From: Candidatus Enterococcus courvalinii | GTDB lineage: Bacteria > Bacillota > Bacilli > Lactobacillales > Enterococcaceae | Direction of reading: 5' to 3' | Assembly (NCBI RefSeq): GCF_017315945.1 | Contig: NZ_JAFLWI010000001.1 | Coordinates: 1 to 64,000, forward strand | DNA: 64,000 nucleotides | Shown: in pieces, positions 9,575 through 49,361 of the stretch | How positions within the stretch are numbered: position 1 is the first letter of the stretch | Layout: each line of letters opens with the position of its first letter | Translations under genes and position numbers: made by a program | The notes under the pieces: generated by a model | What the model was told of the DNA's origin: nothing | Databases searched by the model: none | Seen by the model: the letters and a program-made list of their open reading frames with translations, nothing else

Positions 9575-9865
9575 AAAAAGCTTCCGCCCATTTGCTCCGT
9601 TAAGCAAAAGGACGAAAGCATAAACTTCCGTGTTACCACCTTGATTCGTTAATGCTTTGCAGCAATAACCTCTTTACAGTACTTGAATAATCAATCGCAT
9701 ACTGCCGTGCTATAACGGGCACTCCCGTAGTAAGTTCGCTTGTGCTCACTCACTCTGCTCTAAGACCATCTTCCATCTCATGTTCGTTACCCATTTTCAG
9801 CGAACAGGGCTCTCTTCAAACGTCTGTGAAATGTACTCTTCTTTTCAAAGCTTTCATGTAATTGC
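9575..9865 (-). promoter_or_regulatory. Methionine T-box leader of metNIQ
   Basis: About 290-nt tRNA-sensing leader on the minus strand. The conserved T-box AAGGTGGTAACACGG lies at 9628-9642. Its UGGU bulge would pair with ACCA, fitting the A73 discriminator of tRNA-Met. A likely specifier ATG sits at 9779-9781, on the 3' side of a stem GTTCG...CGAAC. The leader ends in a long terminator stem (GCTTTCGTCC with GGGCGGAAGC, plus flanking TTTTGC/GCAAAT) followed by six T. Uncharged tRNA-Met should favour the antiterminator and turn on methionine uptake. The T-box is certain; the specifier position is inferred. Confidence 0.93.
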
Positions 9866-39689: not shown

Positions 39690-40343
39690 CTACTTATATG
39701 CTCCCTCTTTCAACCAAGAAAGCTTTAACTTAAATTCTTCAATTGCTTGTTCAACTGAGTAGTCCTGAATCACTGAAAGCGACTTATATGAATGTGCAAT
39801 CGTTGAAAACACAATATTCATCAGTAGTGAAATCAATAGTTCTAATTCATGTGAATCTTTTACTTTTAACTTCGTTTGATCAATTACTTCAATCAATGCT
39901 TGTGTATCTTGCTTATGCCTTTTATGTGGCATTTTCTTTGCTTTTTCTTCTTCAGAAAGATGAGGAGTCACTTTACGTGAAGCACGATAATCCATGTGCA
40001 TGAATAAATGTCGGTAAAATGCAGAATTTTCCCCCGCTAAAATTTCCCGAATCATCTTTTCAAAATAAAGCTCAAATCCTTCAAAAAGATCTCCGTGAAC
40101 TTCTTTCATCAAGTTCCTCATGTCTCGTGAACTATCACGTCGTAGTGTTTCAAAATAATAGAAGTAAAGATCTTCTTTATTTTCAAAGTATTGGTAAAAA
40201 CTACCTCGTGGTATCTCAGCTAACTTCACGATATTAGCAATTGACGCATCCTTCAACGGTACTCGTGAAAATTCCGCACTCGCAGCAGCAAGTAATCGTT
40301 GTTGCTTTTCTTTTGGTAAATGAAAAAATGTTTGTGTTGGCAT
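39690..40343 (-). CDS. TetR-family repressor of the ABC exporter operon
   Basis: 217-residue regulator with an N-terminal HTH (KQQRLLAAASAEFSRVPLKD, then IVKLAEIPRGSFYQYFENKEDLYFYYF). I chose the ATG at 40343 with AGGAGGAG upstream; the earlier in-frame codon at 40379 lies inside the operator. First gene of a three-gene operon with the two ABC subunits, so it most likely represses itself and the exporter. Two tandem 15-bp dyads between its promoter and start are the probable operators. The ligand is unknown. Confidence 0.92.
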   Translation of the reverse strand: MPTQTFFHLPKEKQQRLLAAASAEFSRVPLKDASIANIVKLAEIPRGSFYQYFENKEDLYFYYFETLRRDSSRDMRNLMKEVHGDLFEGFELYFEKMIREILAGENSAFYRHLFMHMDYRASRKVTPHLSEEEKAKKMPHKRHKQDTQALIEVIDQTKLKVKDSHELELLISLLMNIVFSTIAHSYKSLSVIQDYSVEQAIEEFKLKLSWLKEGAYK

Positions 40344-40372
40344 AGTCCTCCTCCTTTCGTTTTTTCTCTCGA

Positions 40373-40402
40373 ATGACACGTTGTCATATGACGCTATGTC
40401 AT
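40373..40402. promoter_or_regulatory. Twin TetR operators
   Basis: Two abutting 15-bp dyads: ATGACA-CGT-TGTCAT (40373-40387) and ATGACG-CTA-TGTCAT (40388-40402). They start at the -10 box and cover the predicted transcription start of the TetR-ABC operon. Confidence 0.8.
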
Positions 40403-40614: not shown

Positions 40615-40642
40615 CGTATCATTATAAAATGAGGTGATTTAT

Positions 40643-41119
40643 TTGAATTCAAATATACAATTTAACGAACTAATAGAAGAATTTATTAAAGTCAATAATT
40701 TAATGACACAAATTCAAAAACGACCAATAAATATCACTGAGGATCTAAAGCTTAGCACTAGTATGATCCATCTGATTGAGATGATTGGGAACTACCCCGA
40801 TTCGACGATTACAGATTTAGCTGAGCGTTTGGGTGTTACTAAGGGAGCTATCTCTCAACAAATTCCAACGCTAAGAAAAATGAATCTGATCACTGTGACT
40901 CAAACAAAAGTGAATAAAAAGAACAAACTGATCTCCCTCACAGATCAAGGTAAACAAGTCTACAACTCGCATAACTCTTTGCATAAAGAATTATATGATT
41001 CGATTCAAGAGGCAATGGCTACCTTCTCTGCAGAACAATTAATAACAATCATGGAAATCCTAAAAAAAGTTTCCTTTAATATCAAGGAATACCAAGCAAA
41101 ATTATCTGGGAAGGATTGA
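40643..41119 (+). CDS. MarR-family regulator
   Basis: 158-residue winged-helix regulator. I chose the TTG at 40643, 6 nt after GAGGTG; a GTG at 40634 overlaps the ribosome site. HTH: STITDLAERLGVTKGAISQQIPTLRKMNLI, followed by the wing KVNKKNKLISLTDQG. It heads a run with an unknown protein, an MFS permease and a patatin, all plus strand, and has a dyad at its promoter. It likely senses a small molecule handled by the downstream genes. Confidence 0.88.
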   Translation: MNSNIQFNELIEEFIKVNNLMTQIQKRPINITEDLKLSTSMIHLIEMIGNYPDSTITDLAERLGVTKGAISQQIPTLRKMNLITVTQTKVNKKNKLISLTDQGKQVYNSHNSLHKELYDSIQEAMATFSAEQLITIMEILKKVSFNIKEYQAKLSGKD

Positions 41120-41124
41120 TCAAA

Positions 41125-41883
41125 ATGAAAAAAATGATTATTGAAATCAATGGACAAGTTTTACCTAAGGAAAAAATTGATGAGTGGGAATTGGTTCGTT
41201 TGAAAAAAGAATATAAGTTTTTAACGAAGAATGGATTTAAATTTAATGACCAATTTCTAGTGGATGTTCAAAATAAGGACGTTGATAAAGCAAGAATAGA
41301 GTTAGCAAAGTTAAAAGCTTCTTATGATCCTGAAACCTTTAGAACTTTATTGAAAAGAAAATATACTTTAGGCAATTTGGCCTCGAAAGTAGCCGTTCCT
41401 CTTTCTAGAAGAAGAAAATATAGTATGACTGAATTTGTGATTCCAAATTCCGACAAGTCACCGGAAGAAGTGATGACGGCAATCGAAACTATCATGTTAG
41501 AAAATACTTCCGAGCATTTATATCTAAACTTAGCTACGAATCCCGATCATTTTGTCTTGATCAGTACTGCTGAAAATATCCAAGAAGTAGTGGAAATTAC
41601 GGGTGGTTCGCCCTTCCCTAACCGTTTCTTTGCCCACTATGGTGATGAAACAGGTCTGACTTCAAAACTGGGAGACGGGTTCACAATCCAGGCTGCCGGT
41701 GCTGCTAAGTTAGAAGACGGTACTATTATTGGCGGTGTACGTCATCAGATCAAACGTGAAGGAAATGGATTACGTTTTAGAGCATTAGTCGAGTTTCCCT
41801 CCATATTGCCAAATTATATGATCCAAAAGCATCAGTATCATTTAGCCTGTGAATTTAGACAATGGCTTTCCTACGTTATCTAA
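41125..41883 (+). CDS. Unrecognised 252-residue protein in the MarR-MFS-patatin cluster
   Basis: I do not recognise this family. I chose the ATG at 41125, about 10 nt after GGGAAGG; an upstream TTG (41116) overlaps the marR stop. It is soluble, without membrane segments or signal peptide. The N-terminal third is Lys-rich and helical. The C-terminal half has conserved-looking blocks: GGSPFPNRFFAHYGDE, then AAGAAKLEDGTIIGGVRHQ, then HQYHLACEFRQWL. His and acidic residues suggest an enzyme or ligand-binding fold, but this is only an impression. It is tightly spaced after marR and 44 nt before the MFS gene. Confidence 0.7.
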   Translation: MKKMIIEINGQVLPKEKIDEWELVRLKKEYKFLTKNGFKFNDQFLVDVQNKDVDKARIELAKLKASYDPETFRTLLKRKYTLGNLASKVAVPLSRRRKYSMTEFVIPNSDKSPEEVMTAIETIMLENTSEHLYLNLATNPDHFVLISTAENIQEVVEITGGSPFPNRFFAHYGDETGLTSKLGDGFTIQAAGAAKLEDGTIIGGVRHQIKREGNGLRFRALVEFPSILPNYMIQKHQYHLACEFRQWLSYVI

Positions 41884-41927
41884 TTTGACCACGTCAAATA
41901 TATTTACAAGTTTATTCTTAAAATTAG

Positions 41928-43094
41928 ATGGAAGTGTTTATTATTAAAAAGGAACAAACAACTTTATTAATTATCGTCGTATTTTTTTGGTTTGCACAAT
42001 ATGTATATATTCCATTTCAAACACCCTTTCTTGCGTCTATGAATGTTGCCACAAGTTTTATCGGTATTATCGTAGGAGCTTACGGTATCTCACAAATGGT
42101 CTTGCGTATTCCAGTAGGTGTGATTGCCGATTTAAGACCCAATCATAAACGATTGATTGAAATCGGAACTCTTTTAGCGGGTGTAGCTTCACTATTTCGA
42201 TTTTTCCTACCCAATGCAATTGGATTTCTGATTGGAAATGTGTTGTCCGGTTTTGCCAGTGCCACTTGGATTTCTTTCATGGTGTACTTCATGAGTCTAC
42301 ATGATGGTTTCAATCAAGGTTCAGCCACTGCCAAAATCATTATGGCCAATAACATGGGGATTTTATTAGGGTTTCTTACTAGTAGTTTATTCTATAATCA
42401 CCTTGGTATGCGTTACATTTGTCTGTTAAGTATTATTGCCGGCTTGATTGGCTTCGCTATTTCTACAAGATTAGAAAACAGTCAGCCTGTTTCTGAACAA
42501 CATACAGTTGGAGAATTATTAAGAGTTGGTTTAAATGGCAAGTTGCTTTTGTTTGCTTGTCTAGCTTTGATTCAACAAGGAATCCAAATGGCTGCAACAA
42601 TGTCTTTCACTAATCAAGTAATTGCAAGTATGGGTGCCAGCGGTCTTGAAGTTGGTCTCTCATCTATTATTTATATGTTGTCCGCCGTTACTTTTTCCAA
42701 ACTGGCTTCCATGTCTAATTTCAATCAAAAAAAGACTGCAGCGACAGTGATTCTATCTTTCGCTTTATTAGCAGCCTACTGTTTTTTCATTCCTTTAGCG
42801 CCAAGTATTTTATTGATTTTCTTATTACAGGTTATTCCAGGAGTCGGAACAGGCATCTTATTTTCTTTACTAACATCAGAAGCTATGGCTAGCATACCTG
42901 ACTCAAAAAAATCGAGCGCAATGGGAATTTTCCAAGCGATTTATGCAATTGGCATGACTTTGTTACCCATTTTAGTAGGCATTTTAAGTAACAGCTACAA
43001 TATGAAGATTTCATTTTGGGTGATGTCCTTACTTGCCATTACGGGAGTAATCGTATCAATAGTTTATTATTTAATGTCGACTAACAAAAAATAG
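41928..43094 (+). CDS. MFS transporter
   Basis: 388-residue major facilitator with about twelve transmembrane helices. The family loop motif between helices 2 and 3 is VGVIADLRPNHKR (about residues 63-75). The ATG at 41928 lacks a good ribosome site; the GGAAGTG that overlaps it would suit a start a few codons later, so the exact start is uncertain. It is third in the MarR cluster and 16 nt before the patatin gene. Efflux or uptake of the MarR ligand is likely; the substrate is unknown. Confidence 0.85.
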   Translation: MEVFIIKKEQTTLLIIVVFFWFAQYVYIPFQTPFLASMNVATSFIGIIVGAYGISQMVLRIPVGVIADLRPNHKRLIEIGTLLAGVASLFRFFLPNAIGFLIGNVLSGFASATWISFMVYFMSLHDGFNQGSATAKIIMANNMGILLGFLTSSLFYNHLGMRYICLLSIIAGLIGFAISTRLENSQPVSEQHTVGELLRVGLNGKLLLFACLALIQQGIQMAATMSFTNQVIASMGASGLEVGLSSIIYMLSAVTFSKLASMSNFNQKKTAATVILSFALLAAYCFFIPLAPSILLIFLLQVIPGVGTGILFSLLTSEAMASIPDSKKSSAMGIFQAIYAIGMTLLPILVGILSNSYNMKISFWVMSLLAITGVIVSIVYYLMSTNKK

Positions 43095-43110
43095 AAGGAG
43101 GTGGTGTATC

Positions 43111-44019
43111 TTGAGGAAAAGTTCTAATTTCAACAAATTACCAAATGGTCGAGCGTCAACCTCCATTACCAAAGGGTGCTTAGTAATTGAAGGTGGCGCT
43201 TTTCGAGGAATCTATGCTCAGGGAGTAGCCGACTTCTTAATGGAGCAAGAACTAAACTTTGAATGTACGGTTGGTTGTTCTGCTGGCGCTTTAACTGGCA
43301 TGAACTATGTATCTGGGCAAATAGGTCGATCAATCAATATTAATCTAACCTATCGACATGACAGTCGCTACGTTGGCTTTAAAGCAATGGTGCACAACAA
43401 AGGTTTAATTGGATTTGATTTTGTACTAAATAGAGTCAATCAATTTTACCCATTTGATAAGCAACGCTTTTTATCAAAAGATCGTCGATTTATCGCAACA
43501 ACTACTGACATCAAAACAGGAAGACCCTGCTATTTTGATAAAGATACGAGTCTTGACTATGCCTTAACTATCAAGGCTTCGGCTAGTATGCCGTTTATTT
43601 CAAAACCAGTTATTATTGGGGACTCACTCTATTTAGATGGTGGGATTGTCGATTCGATTCCTTACAGATGGGCAATAGACCAAGGATACAAGAAAATAAT
43701 CGTTATTCGAACTCGTGAAACATCATATAGAAAGAACGTTAAGAAAAATAATAAGCTATTAAGTCACTCAAACCTTCTAAAACAATATCCTGCACTTAAA
43801 CAAGCAATGAAAAACAGACCTGCTATGTACAATAAACAATGTGATGACCTCACCCAACTTGTGGAAGATAGGAAAGTATTTTGTATAAGCCCTTCCGTAC
43901 CAGTGAATGTTGGGCGTTTAGAAGGAAATATAGCCAAGCTAGAAAACCTGTATTGGTTGGGCTATCAAGACGCTCAGCATTTCTTTCCAGATTTAAATGA
44001 CTACTTATATAAAAGCTAA
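43111..44019 (+). CDS. Patatin-like phospholipase
   Basis: 302-residue patatin-fold lipid hydrolase. Oxyanion motif EGGAFRGIYAQG (about 27-38), nucleophile elbow GCSAGAL (Ser about 57), and catalytic Asp in LDGGIVDSIP (about 174) are all intact. The start is TTG at 43111 after AGAAGGAGGTG. The C-terminus continues into the DUF6363-type extension usual for bacterial YlaK/RssA-like patatins. Last gene of the MarR cluster. Soluble; acts on phospholipids or acyl esters. Confidence 0.9.
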   Translation: MRKSSNFNKLPNGRASTSITKGCLVIEGGAFRGIYAQGVADFLMEQELNFECTVGCSAGALTGMNYVSGQIGRSININLTYRHDSRYVGFKAMVHNKGLIGFDFVLNRVNQFYPFDKQRFLSKDRRFIATTTDIKTGRPCYFDKDTSLDYALTIKASASMPFISKPVIIGDSLYLDGGIVDSIPYRWAIDQGYKKIIVIRTRETSYRKNVKKNNKLLSHSNLLKQYPALKQAMKNRPAMYNKQCDDLTQLVEDRKVFCISPSVPVNVGRLEGNIAKLENLYWLGYQDAQHFFPDLNDYLYKS

Positions 44020-44071
44020 AGATACAATAAAAATAATTCTGTCCTATACGTTTCGTTGCTTCAACTTATAC

Positions 44072-44375
44072 AAAAAAAAGAAACAGCACATTCGTTAAAC
44101 GAATGCACTGTTTCTTTTAAAAATAAGTGAGTAAGGGTTTCCCACCTTTTCTGTCTTAGTTAGTTCATTGTTCTCATAGAAAAAGAAAACCCGTTTGCCA
44201 GCCAGACGAACTTAGAATATGAGAAGTCACTTCGGCTATCTTTCTTGTAAAAACAATGAACTAACAGCAACTCTAATGAAAGAGTGATGATTTGCTACAA
44301 GTATGTAAGAAAAAAATCAACTCTCCCACTTGTGGGGTTATTTGAGATATGCATCCCAAATCAACATGGTGGAAT
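44072..44375 (-). ncRNA. Candidate structured small RNA, about 300 nt
   Basis: An independent minus-strand transcription unit without an ORF. The promoter is TTGGAA (44406-44411), 18-nt spacer, TATAAT (44382-44387). It ends in a strong intrinsic terminator (44074-44120). Inside, a perfect 14-bp long-range helix GTTAGTTCATTGTT/AACAATGAACTAAC (about 44158-44270) encloses a second helix TTCTCATA/TATGAGAA and a small GTCTG/CAAAC hairpin. Upstream are TTTGGGAT/ATCTCAAA, CCCAC/GTGGG and ACTCT/AGAGT hairpins. It resembles a housekeeping-type RNA (6S or Lacto-usp class is possible) but I cannot match it to a family. It accounts for most of the 596-bp gap 44020-44615. Confidence 0.7.
44074..44120. terminator. 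Terminator shared by patatin gene and candidate RNA
   Basis: AAAGAAACAGCACATTCGTT pairs with AACGAATGCACTGTTTCTTT (one mismatch) with long A and T flanks, working on both strands. Confidence 0.93.
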
Positions 44376-44381
44376 AACTAA

Positions 44382-44411
44382 ATTATAGCCAAGCAAATCA
44401 GACATTTCCAA
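44382..44411 (-). promoter_or_regulatory. Promoter of the candidate small RNA
   Basis: Minus strand TTGGAA (44406-44411), 18-nt spacer, perfect TATAAT (44382-44387). Confidence 0.7.
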
Positions 44412-44529
44412 TATACTTTTACCGATGTCGAGGTAAAACAGTATAAACAAGTTATTCTTTACTCTAGATTCAAGTATGATTTAGTTTGAAAGAAAAAACA
44501 CTAAAATAAATATTCTTTGTTTTTAAACC

Positions 44530-44558
44530 TTGATAGCCTTTTCTTTTTCGAGTAAACT
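44530..44558 (+). promoter_or_regulatory. Likely azoreductase promoter
   Basis: TTGATA (44530-44535), 17-nt spacer, TAAACT (44553-44558). Confidence 0.6.
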
Positions 44559-44609: not shown

Positions 44610-45236
<627 letters not shown>

Positions 45237-48466: not shown

Positions 48467-48649
48467 ATGAAGAAAGAAGCGAGGAACATGAACCAACAGG
48501 ATGTGTTAGATCGTTTGCGTGAAGACTTGAATATTCCTTTTTTTCAGGGGAAAATTGAAGATAAAGAGTATACTGAGGCAGACTATCAACAATTAAAAAA
48601 AGATCTAGAAGATTATTTTGATAACTATGTCAGAAATGTTGAAAACTGA
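48467..48649 (+). CDS. Unknown 60-residue acidic protein
   Basis: Short soluble protein rich in Asp, Glu and Lys (DVLDRLREDLNIPFFQGKIED), likely helical. Starts at 48467 (AAGAG 8 nt upstream) or 48488 (GAGG very near) are both possible. It ends directly against the repeat array at 48650. Its position at the end of a co-directional run, with a plausible ribosome site, supports it as a real gene, but it is not recognised. Confidence 0.55.
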   Translation: MKKEARNMNQQDVLDRLREDLNIPFFQGKIEDKEYTEADYQQLKKDLEDYFDNYVRNVEN

Positions 48650-49050
48650 AAAAGGTTGTGGCACAAAGCGGTCAGCTCTGAACAGATAACGAACACGCAC
48701 TCAAAATAGCTTTCCATATTTTGAAGTGGATGCAAGTTATATGGAGGAGTTGCTTTGGGAACACCGTGAAAAAGGTTGTGGCACAAAGCGATCAGCTCTG
48801 AACAGATAACGAACACGCACTCAAAATAGCTTTCCATATTTTGAAGTGGATGCAAGTTATATGGAGGAGTTGCTTTGGGAACACCGTGAAAAAGGTTGTG
48901 GCACAAAGCGATTAGCTCTGAACAGATAACGAACACGCACTCAAAATAGCTTTCCATATTTTGAAGTGGATGCAAGTTATATGGAGGAGTTGCTTTGGGA
49001 ACACCGTGAAAAAGGTTGTGGCACAAAGCGATCAGCTCTGAACAGATAAC
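48650..49050 (+). repeat. Tandem 120-bp palindromic repeats, three full copies plus a partial
   Basis: Three copies of exactly 120 bp (48650-48769, 48770-48889, 48890-49009) and 41 bp of a fourth (49010-49050). Copies differ by only one or two bases (GCGGTCAG, GCGATCAG, GCGATTAG). Each starts AAAAAGGTTGTGGCAC and ends GGGAACACCGTG. The array starts right after the stop codon at 48649. In the 712-bp gap 48650-49361 it is followed by two terminators and a T-rich 3' region of the minus-strand gene. Confidence 0.97.
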
Positions 49051-49101
49051 AAACGGATAAAACATATGACAAACACTCTTCCCCTATTTAATACTATCTC
49101 C

Positions 49102-49141: not shown

Positions 49142-49198
49142 TTCGAATAATTGGCATTTTAGCATGGCTCCTTCGGAATTGAACAAATCTTTGTGCAT

Positions 49199-49230
49199 AA
49201 AAAAACCACCGAGTTGGTTAGGCTCGGTGG
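49199..49230 (-). terminator. Intrinsic terminator of the 49796-49362 gene
   Basis: Minus strand CCACCGAG and CTCGGTGG around a 9-nt loop, followed by seven T. It lies about 130 nt beyond the stop codon, leaving a long 3' region with a second small stem (TTACTC/GAGTAA). Confidence 0.85.
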
Positions 49231-49361
49231 AAAAGGCTACTTACTCAATGAGAGTAAATAAAGGTTGTTGTTGGTTATGCTTTTATCATATAGCAGTGAG
49301 TAACGCTTATCATAAAAAAAACGTTATATTTAGATTAAATAACTCTAGTTTTATGTTTATT

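Follow-up and report, generated by a model that had tools for sequence, protein, structure and literature searches.

Regulators of the Mga/AtxA type are described in a review as coupling surface and virulence genes to the sensing of sugars in several Gram-positive bacteria (PMC8560693), and three sources present the DNA sites of these proteins as hard to define (PMC7843513, PMC8560693, PMC10773906). At the E. faecalis promoter P10478 the footprint of MafR extends from -70 to -34, and the same paper stresses the low identity of MafR sites to each other (PMC10773906), a low sequence identity being likewise mentioned for the sites of the Mga/MafR family in the review (PMC8560693). The described small RNAs that depend on a regulator of this type are XrrA and XrrB, two AtxA-dependent sRNAs presented as the first report of such regulation in a study that found no consensus site (PMC7843513); in the review the term “small RNA” appears only where the XrrA/XrrB work is cited (PMC8560693). 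As to surface protein genes, inverted repeats have been placed upstream of the mapped promoter of prpA of E. faecium (PMC4682149).

The feature considered here lies in a stretch of 64,000 nucleotides (the window), the minus strand of which looks, judging from its sequence, like a separate transcription unit between positions 44375 and 44072 (Table 1). By the criteria that can be applied to a sequence the feature is a real RNA gene, new as a family and ordinary in kind, its interest residing in its promoter. A more far-reaching interpretation, namely that this is a stand-alone sRNA gene of the E. thailandicus group, activated by a Mga/MafR-type protein and acting through base pairing of its tail in trans, is in our estimate evenly poised between being right and wrong.

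Table 1. Features of the RNA locus and of its surroundings (window coordinates)
Feature	Position	Strand	Basis or remark
RNA gene, ~300 nt	44072..44375	-	sequence, fold and conservation block in 3 species; ends predicted
-10 box TATAAT	44382..44387	-	exactly 30 nt 3′ of the palindrome
-35-like hexamer TTGGAA, weak	44406..44411	-	promoter scan; alone at chance level
Palindrome TTTACCTCGACATCGGTAAA, putative activator site	44418..44437	-	about -62 to -43 from the predicted start
Intrinsic terminator, 20-pair stem, loop of 3, then T run	44076..44118	-	terminator scan
Long-range helix, 14 perfect pairs, enclosing the central domain	44159..44265	-	44265-44252 with 44172-44159
Closing helix	44140..44374	-	44374-44368 with 44146-44140; invariant in 3 species
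Central-domain core, 48 nt, longest invariant run	44181..44228	-	identical in 3/3 species
Unpaired 3′ tail AACCCUUACUCACUUAUUUU, proposed pairing segment	44120..44139	-	unpaired in fold models; identical in 3/3 species
Azoreductase gene azoR, neighbour	44616..45236	+	PDB 2hpv match, E 7.4e-95
Promoter-like site of azoR, pointing away from the RNA promoter	44530..44558	+	scan; alone at chance level
tetR-type regulator gene (named by eye)	39690..40379	-	tblastn 99.6% and 96.1% in relatives
Four genes: MarR-like (by eye), unnamed 255 aa, MFS, patatin	40634..44019	+	between tetR and the RNA

The transcription unit

The RNA is predicted to start at about 44375, an A located 7 nt past the TATAAT box, and to end with the T run after the terminator, a body of ~256 nt separating the predicted start from the terminator. 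A first description of this DNA, made without database searches (the sequence-only reading), had endowed the unit with its own minus-strand promoter and with a strong terminator ~300 nt away. The scan taken alone does not sustain the first of these claims, the promoter-like sites in the 2.8-kb region being 10 vs 10.5 ± 3.3 in shuffles, i.e., chance level, and the impression of a strong sigma-70 promoter was dropped; what renders the promoter convincing is that the palindrome is conserved and stands at a fixed spacing. The terminator, on the other hand, is as it had been described; 20 pairs is the longest stem that the scan counts, and terminator-like sites in the same 2.8-kb region are 3 vs 1.6 ± 1.2 in shuffles. 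In each of the two relatives that carry the RNA, Enterococcus sp. DIV0660C and E. thailandicus, 40 of the 43 terminator positions are identical, and the stem appears, from reading the sequences by eye, to be partly kept through G-U pairs.

At the level of sequence the unit displays the traits of a stand-alone sRNA: a promoter of its own, with a composite site that is kept in all three species and is common to operons, an intrinsic terminator of its own that is kept in the relatives, and no conserved reading frame other than one of nine codons that keeps its length and has no ribosome site. The earlier proposal of an independent structured RNA gene is supported at the sequence level by promoter site, terminator, fold and conservation block.

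The palindromic promoter class

The palindrome TTTACCN8GGTAAA, allowing up to one mismatch, has a single match in the window vs 0.14 expected; taken alone, it is hardly enriched in the genus, where it is found in 24 places in 14 of 15 genomes vs 18 for the reversed control. Eight palindrome sites were read, and seven of them share with the RNA a spacing of 30 nt to an ATAAT box, the exception being the second site of the window's own genome (G000, L063). The composite element TTTACCN8GGTAAA-N30-NATAAT with at most one mismatch occurs at 24 sites in the 15 genus genomes vs 2 for the reversed control, a spacing test that is not fully independent, the 30-nt distance having been defined on some of the sites later counted; at the same stringency there is no excess in the other 90 family genomes (9 vs 20 reversed). 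With zero mismatches 17 composite sites are found, all of them in the genus and none in the other 90 family genomes.

Three of these 17 sites precede the RNA, one per RNA-bearing species, and 14 precede surface-protein-type genes in eight genomes (G001, G004, G005, G006, G008, G011, G012 and G014). The latter fall into two types. Type A comprises eight sites, each with an [LF]PxTG frame within 600 nt and, where listed, a second protein of ~200 aa; type B comprises six, with a large protein starting 181–328 nt past the -10 box, a distance that runs to a start codon chosen by script. At one of the sites, L066, the script listed no ORF. That the downstream genes encode surface proteins is deduced from the sorting motif in type A and from N-termini that look by eye like secretion signals in type B. 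Family scans, which covered few proteins only, yielded one LPXTG anchor match in Pfam and one small LPXTG protein scoring 45.1 bits with EF0750_LPXTG (NF053819), just under the cut-off of 47, while two type A and two type B proteins gave no Pfam match. A “GGTTTT”-like stretch that follows the palindrome at the surface operons is missing at the RNA promoter, and in the lineage of the window's genome no composite site other than that of the RNA was found at up to one mismatch.

The leaders of the type B genes (L072, L081, L084, L089, L091, L092), with their 181–328 nt, are long enough for leader regulation.

Fold and constraint

The minus strand of 44068-44375 folds with -99.9 kcal/mol (z -8.5, 0/100 shuffles as good) and the body without the terminator with -74.1 kcal/mol (z -4.7, 0/200), the opposite strand giving a z of -1.9 with 9/200 shuffles as good; the E. 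thailandicus body folds alike on its own (z -2.9, 1/200 shuffles). The perfect 14-bp long-range pair pointed out in the sequence-only reading is real, its arms GTTAGTTCATTGTT and AACAATGAACTAAC being exact complements, and in the relatives one or two positions of one arm differ. The closing helix joins the 5′ end of the RNA to the region preceding the tail, which belongs to a 31-nt invariant run (44120-44150). When the fold of the window sequence is applied to the three aligned rows, 96.8% of 249 cells pair compared with 46–52% for slid versions of the fold, a fold that was itself derived from one of these rows. Covariation had been proposed as a check; in the only three, close sequences none of the 86 pairs has both partners altered, and the predicted structure is supported, covariation being no proof of it.

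Conservation reaches beyond the terminator. In the comparison with E. thailandicus the body of the RNA has 93.6% identity (233/249, 7 gap columns), a value above those of the third codon positions of azoR (180/206, 87.4%) and tetR (163/218, 74.8%) and of the spacer upstream of the promoter (70/90, 77.8%, with 65 gap columns). Compared with DIV0660C the difference is small, the values being 96.8% for the body, 94.7% and 92.7% for the third positions of azoR and tetR, and 88.8% for the spacer. The promoter-operator stretch (92.3 and 95.4% in the relatives) is no better conserved than the whole body, and the palindrome TTTACCTCGACATCGGTAAA itself is identical in the three species.

Distribution

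Full-length DNA matches were sought in 58 relatives and 15 genus genomes and were found in the own genome of the window, in DIV0660C (G009; RNA 95% identical) and in E. thailandicus DSM 21767 (G003; 92% identical with and 91% without the terminator) only. A covariance model made from these three sequences and run on 105 family genomes recovered the three species at E < 1e-89, with a strict filter that could miss strongly diverged relatives; four weaker matches (E 0.12–0.55) were taken as chance. An exact 19-mer search of genome contigs returned five records, two of which are Enterococcus carrying the RNA; the other three (Ancylobacter, Lysobacterales, Planctomycetaceae) are unrelated bacteria and were taken as chance. 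Near-matches in two other genera of the family (L042, L043) were discarded, the surrounding sequence being unrelated by eye. No RNA match emerged from phages and plasmids (distant blastn) or from viral contigs (exact 19-mer), and a search of open-licence papers by title and abstract yielded none describing this RNA or the palindrome. The Rfam/Infernal comparison that had been suggested returned no family for the RNA: no match reached the gathering score, and a permissive search up to E 10 gave none that was credible.

The genomic slot

The RNA lies in the azoR-tetR gap; in the two relatives its immediate downstream neighbor, on the same strand, is tetR, the four plus-strand genes being absent. 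A search by tblastn with the TetR of the window gave a match at 13 of 15 azoR loci, the two others being the window's own, where tetR is ~4.3 kb from azoR, and L034, where the slot holds other sequence. Among 10 loci lacking the RNA (an inspection that left out L031), L023, L028, L030 and L033 hold nothing else in the azoR-tetR gap. An unfiltered search of 12 azoR loci produced 140 matches, the best of 15 bits (nominal E 0.0012) vs 284–309 bits for real members; these matches are regarded as noise because they are short or gapped, scattered or outside the azoR-tetR gap. A sequence like the azoR promoter-like site is present upstream of azoR in other species.

Some further observations concern the surroundings. 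At L024-L027, L029 and L032 the slot of the RNA holds a gene of ~100 aa, rhodanese-like by eye, and the patatin gene has a full-length match in no other of the 15 genus genomes, where two short matches only were found. Elsewhere in the window, a 146-aa frame (48625-49065) contains three near-identical repeats of 40 residues and is adjoined by an Rfam Ref84 match (49198-49276), and a T-box leader (RF00230) lies at 9605-9857, upstream of an ABC transporter operon that resembles, by eye, a methionine importer.

A candidate regulator

A gene of the Mga/MafR type lies directly beside all eight type A sites, a count that leaves out the six type B operons, and its products are 64–100% identical to the regulator of G014, which has a Mga helix-turn-helix domain (PF05043, Pfam) and belongs to the NCBIfam group AcpB/EbpR/MafR. 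Its nearest relatives in E. thailandicus (G003 C19:17661-19010) and in DIV0660C, each encoded by a single frame, have 43% identity to it, that of E. thailandicus having the same family matches. In the window's own genome the relative consists of two overlapping frames of 173 and 330 aa (L149 9449-9970 and 9967-10959; C28), 39% and 49% identical to the reference, the DIV0660C counterpart being one frame of 503 aa; in this genome the gene may be inactive or misassembled.

In a FastTree phylogeny the relatives in E. thailandicus and DIV0660C cluster with one G002 protein (support 0.98), and the resulting cluster stands next to the type A regulators with a support of only 0.70. In the DNA-binding region these relatives agree with the type A reference at 59–61 of 111 positions and the G002 protein at 57 of 107, compared with 43–51 of 109–111 for paralogues located beside the type A regulators; in the recognition stretch of 27 residues there is no difference (15 vs 14–17). 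A type A or near-type regulator is encoded in each of the 11 genomes that contain a zero-mismatch site, and in the site-less genomes G002, G007, G010 and G013 the best-scoring regulator matches are 38, 28, 24 and 23% identical; G002 has a near-type regulator, yet no composite site at zero or one mismatch. This co-occurrence of regulator and site in the sequences is suggestive only, the species being related and G002 a possible exception.

Beside the candidate regulator gene itself no palindrome with up to two mismatches was found within up to 1.5 kb, the contigs of the relatives ending ~150 nt past the gene. Farther along the same contig of the window's genome (L149 15521-19901), ~4.6 kb beyond the first regulator, there is a second Mga-HTH gene followed by genes for proteins with SpaA and legume-lectin-type domains, a stretch in which no composite palindrome site occurs at up to two mismatches.

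The palindrome, at about -62 to -43, falls within the range of the MafR footprint at P10478 (PMC10773906). A simple transfer of the MafR model is nevertheless disfavored because MafR sites share little sequence, unlike the strict palindrome.

Alternative explanations

Several other accounts of the feature deserve consideration. The sequence-only reading had argued that, with both neighbors on the plus strand, the RNA is not a leader; the orientation is as stated in the window, because extra genes intervene there between tetR and the RNA, but the argument does not hold in the relatives, where the RNA stands upstream of tetR on the same strand, the tetR start being ~422 nt past the -10 box and ~110 nt past the terminator. 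This arrangement would suit a leader or attenuator of a tetR-ABC transporter operon in which the terminator acts as the switch. Between terminator and tetR start, however, a reading by eye reveals in all three species a promoter-like sequence with TGACA/TGTCA repeats that would belong to tetR itself and that is also present in species devoid of the RNA. A further argument against a leader is that the RNA is kept both with and without tetR directly behind it, the latter being the case in the window's genome with its four intervening plus-strand genes; the RNA is probably not a leader, and its being a tetR attenuator is very improbable. Scarcely to be credited, too, is a messenger that encodes a small protein, or an RNA of dual function. 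In favor of it, a frame reading MLIWD(A/S/E)(Y/H)LK has a constant length of nine codons in the three species; its ATG is preceded by a short leader with no ribosome site, and its variable codons fall in a hairpin loop. The remaining small frames are not conserved across the three species and the longer ones break in E. thailandicus, including a 36-aa frame starting with TTG (44160-44270), the existence of which contradicts the letter of the earlier statement that the unit has no ORF and leaves intact its substance, that there is no convincing conserved frame. As to a housekeeping RNA, be it 6S or some other known class (Lacto-usp had also been named), what might evoke it is the long, rod-shaped helix that holds a large internal domain; the chances of this identity are negligible, since the genome has its 6S RNA elsewhere (G000 C1:170689-170883, above cut-off), Rfam offers no match and, of 105 family genomes, only 3 yielded the RNA.

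Two alternatives take the promoter into account. According to one of them the feature is a relic, the promoter of a surface operon with its long untranslated leader having been moved to, or left at, a place between azoR and tetR, where it would drive a functionless transcript; the surface operons are indeed driven by the same promoter class, and the six zero-mismatch type B leaders have a length similar to that of the RNA. The body of the RNA has, on the other hand, changed less with respect to E. thailandicus than the third positions of azoR and tetR and the adjacent spacer, it ends in a strong conserved terminator, and by blastn it does not match the first 600 nt after 17 such operon sites (best 12 nt, E 0.15), and we hold a relic to be improbable. 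According to the other, which we consider unlikely while granting it real weight, the RNA is genuine and independent and the palindrome is bound by a different factor, activator or repressor, the Mga-type genes being mere neighbors. Dimeric regulators from other families are those for which a strict 6-8-6 palindrome is more typical, and G002 possesses a near-type regulator without the site. Low sequence identity among characterized Mga/MafR sites, as reported in two papers (PMC10773906, PMC8560693), points in the same direction. What speaks against a different factor is the regulator gene that directly adjoins all eight type A sites, the joint presence of regulator and site in the 11 site-bearing genomes, and a position of the palindrome that fits the MafR footprint (PMC10773906).

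Proposed mechanism and candidate targets

If the RNA is the activated, trans-acting sRNA that we favor, a Mga/AtxA-type activator of the AcpB/EbpR/MafR family would bind the palindrome and recruit RNA polymerase, so that the RNA would be made when the regulator is active. The fold probably serves to protect the RNA and to present its tail, an invariant unpaired C/U-rich segment, AACCCUUACUCACUU, that would pair in trans with Shine-Dalgarno-like GAGUAAGGG and thereby block translation.

A weak target candidate is a gene of 144 aa, belonging to no recognized family, located ~750 nt upstream of the gene for the closest regulator relative in the group. Over its ribosome site the sequence UGAGUAAGGG would allow the tail an uninterrupted run of 10 Watson-Crick pairs in the window's genome; DIV0660C keeps all ten and E. 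thailandicus has ten including one G-U pair. Ten Watson-Crick pairs with the tail are reached by 2 of 352 sampled start regions, this gene included, and by energy 10 of the 352 equal or exceed its binding to the tail, the 144-aa gene itself being counted as the tenth; on 74 hand-listed start regions it ranked first by energy. The 352 regions, crude calls by script, came from the window, from L149 and from 20 evenly spaced stretches of 20 kb, and the 144-aa locus had been looked at before the sampling, which makes the ranking a lead only. In the three genomes the seed of the tail is not enriched and is rarer than its reversed control.

A non-coding stretch complementary to the tail was also noticed past a P-type-ATPase-like gene, between two hairpins and not at a start codon. 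The match extends over 18 of 18 nt in E. thailandicus (E 0.05; L154 ~1501-1518) and has one mismatch in 15 in the window's genome (L155 ~1501-1515); at -25.1 and -20.6 the two duplexes are more stable than those of 8340 windows sampled, while a later sample contains a start region with -21.9. Of the DIV0660C rows one, L156, was inspected, and its sequence is unrelated. As targets, both the start of the 144-aa gene and the stretch next to the P-type-ATPase-like gene are leads only, suggested by sequence complementarity. A more specific scheme, in which the lineage-restricted RNA would be the only good palindrome output left to the Mga/MafR-type regulator and its tail would feed back on the nearby 144-aa gene, we regard as decidedly unlikely.

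Implications

A palindrome fixed at 30 nt before the -10 box in 17 places of one genus, with a clean control, constitutes a testable operator, and the RNA suggests that the product of such an operator can also be non-coding, here in a lineage where no other site was found at up to one mismatch. Should the activator reading prove true, the RNA would be a regulatory RNA whose control is tied to the cell surface. Under the more specific feedback scheme it would represent a second case of a Mga/AtxA-type protein controlling an sRNA, and a sequence-specific operator would have been supplied for this class of regulators.

Comparison with known systems

With 6S RNA (RF00013) the predicted fold has in common the shape of a long helical rod; the RNA does not match this family, the 6S RNA of the genome being encoded at another locus. 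The EF0750/EF2685-type LPXTG surface operons, which we take to be “WxL” loci, have the same palindrome-N30-NATAAT promoter element but encode surface proteins, whereas the RNA unit encodes no recognizable protein. Like the mapped sRNAs of E. faecalis and E. faecium (PMC7724050), the RNA is small, non-coding and intergenic; it is probably not one of them because the covariance search of the other 102 family genomes gave no homologue that is credible. The MafR-activated promoters of E. faecalis resemble the RNA promoter in that the regulator is of the same NCBIfam group and the site lies at about -70 to -34, and differ from it in that the one examined serves a protein gene and that MafR sites have little sequence in common (PMC10773906). 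Finally, XrrA and XrrB are reported to be regulator-dependent, trans-acting sRNAs, two properties that the RNA may share; they are plasmid-borne, belong to Bacillus and are associated with no consensus site, whereas the RNA described here has a palindrome at a fixed spacing that is common to operons (PMC7843513).
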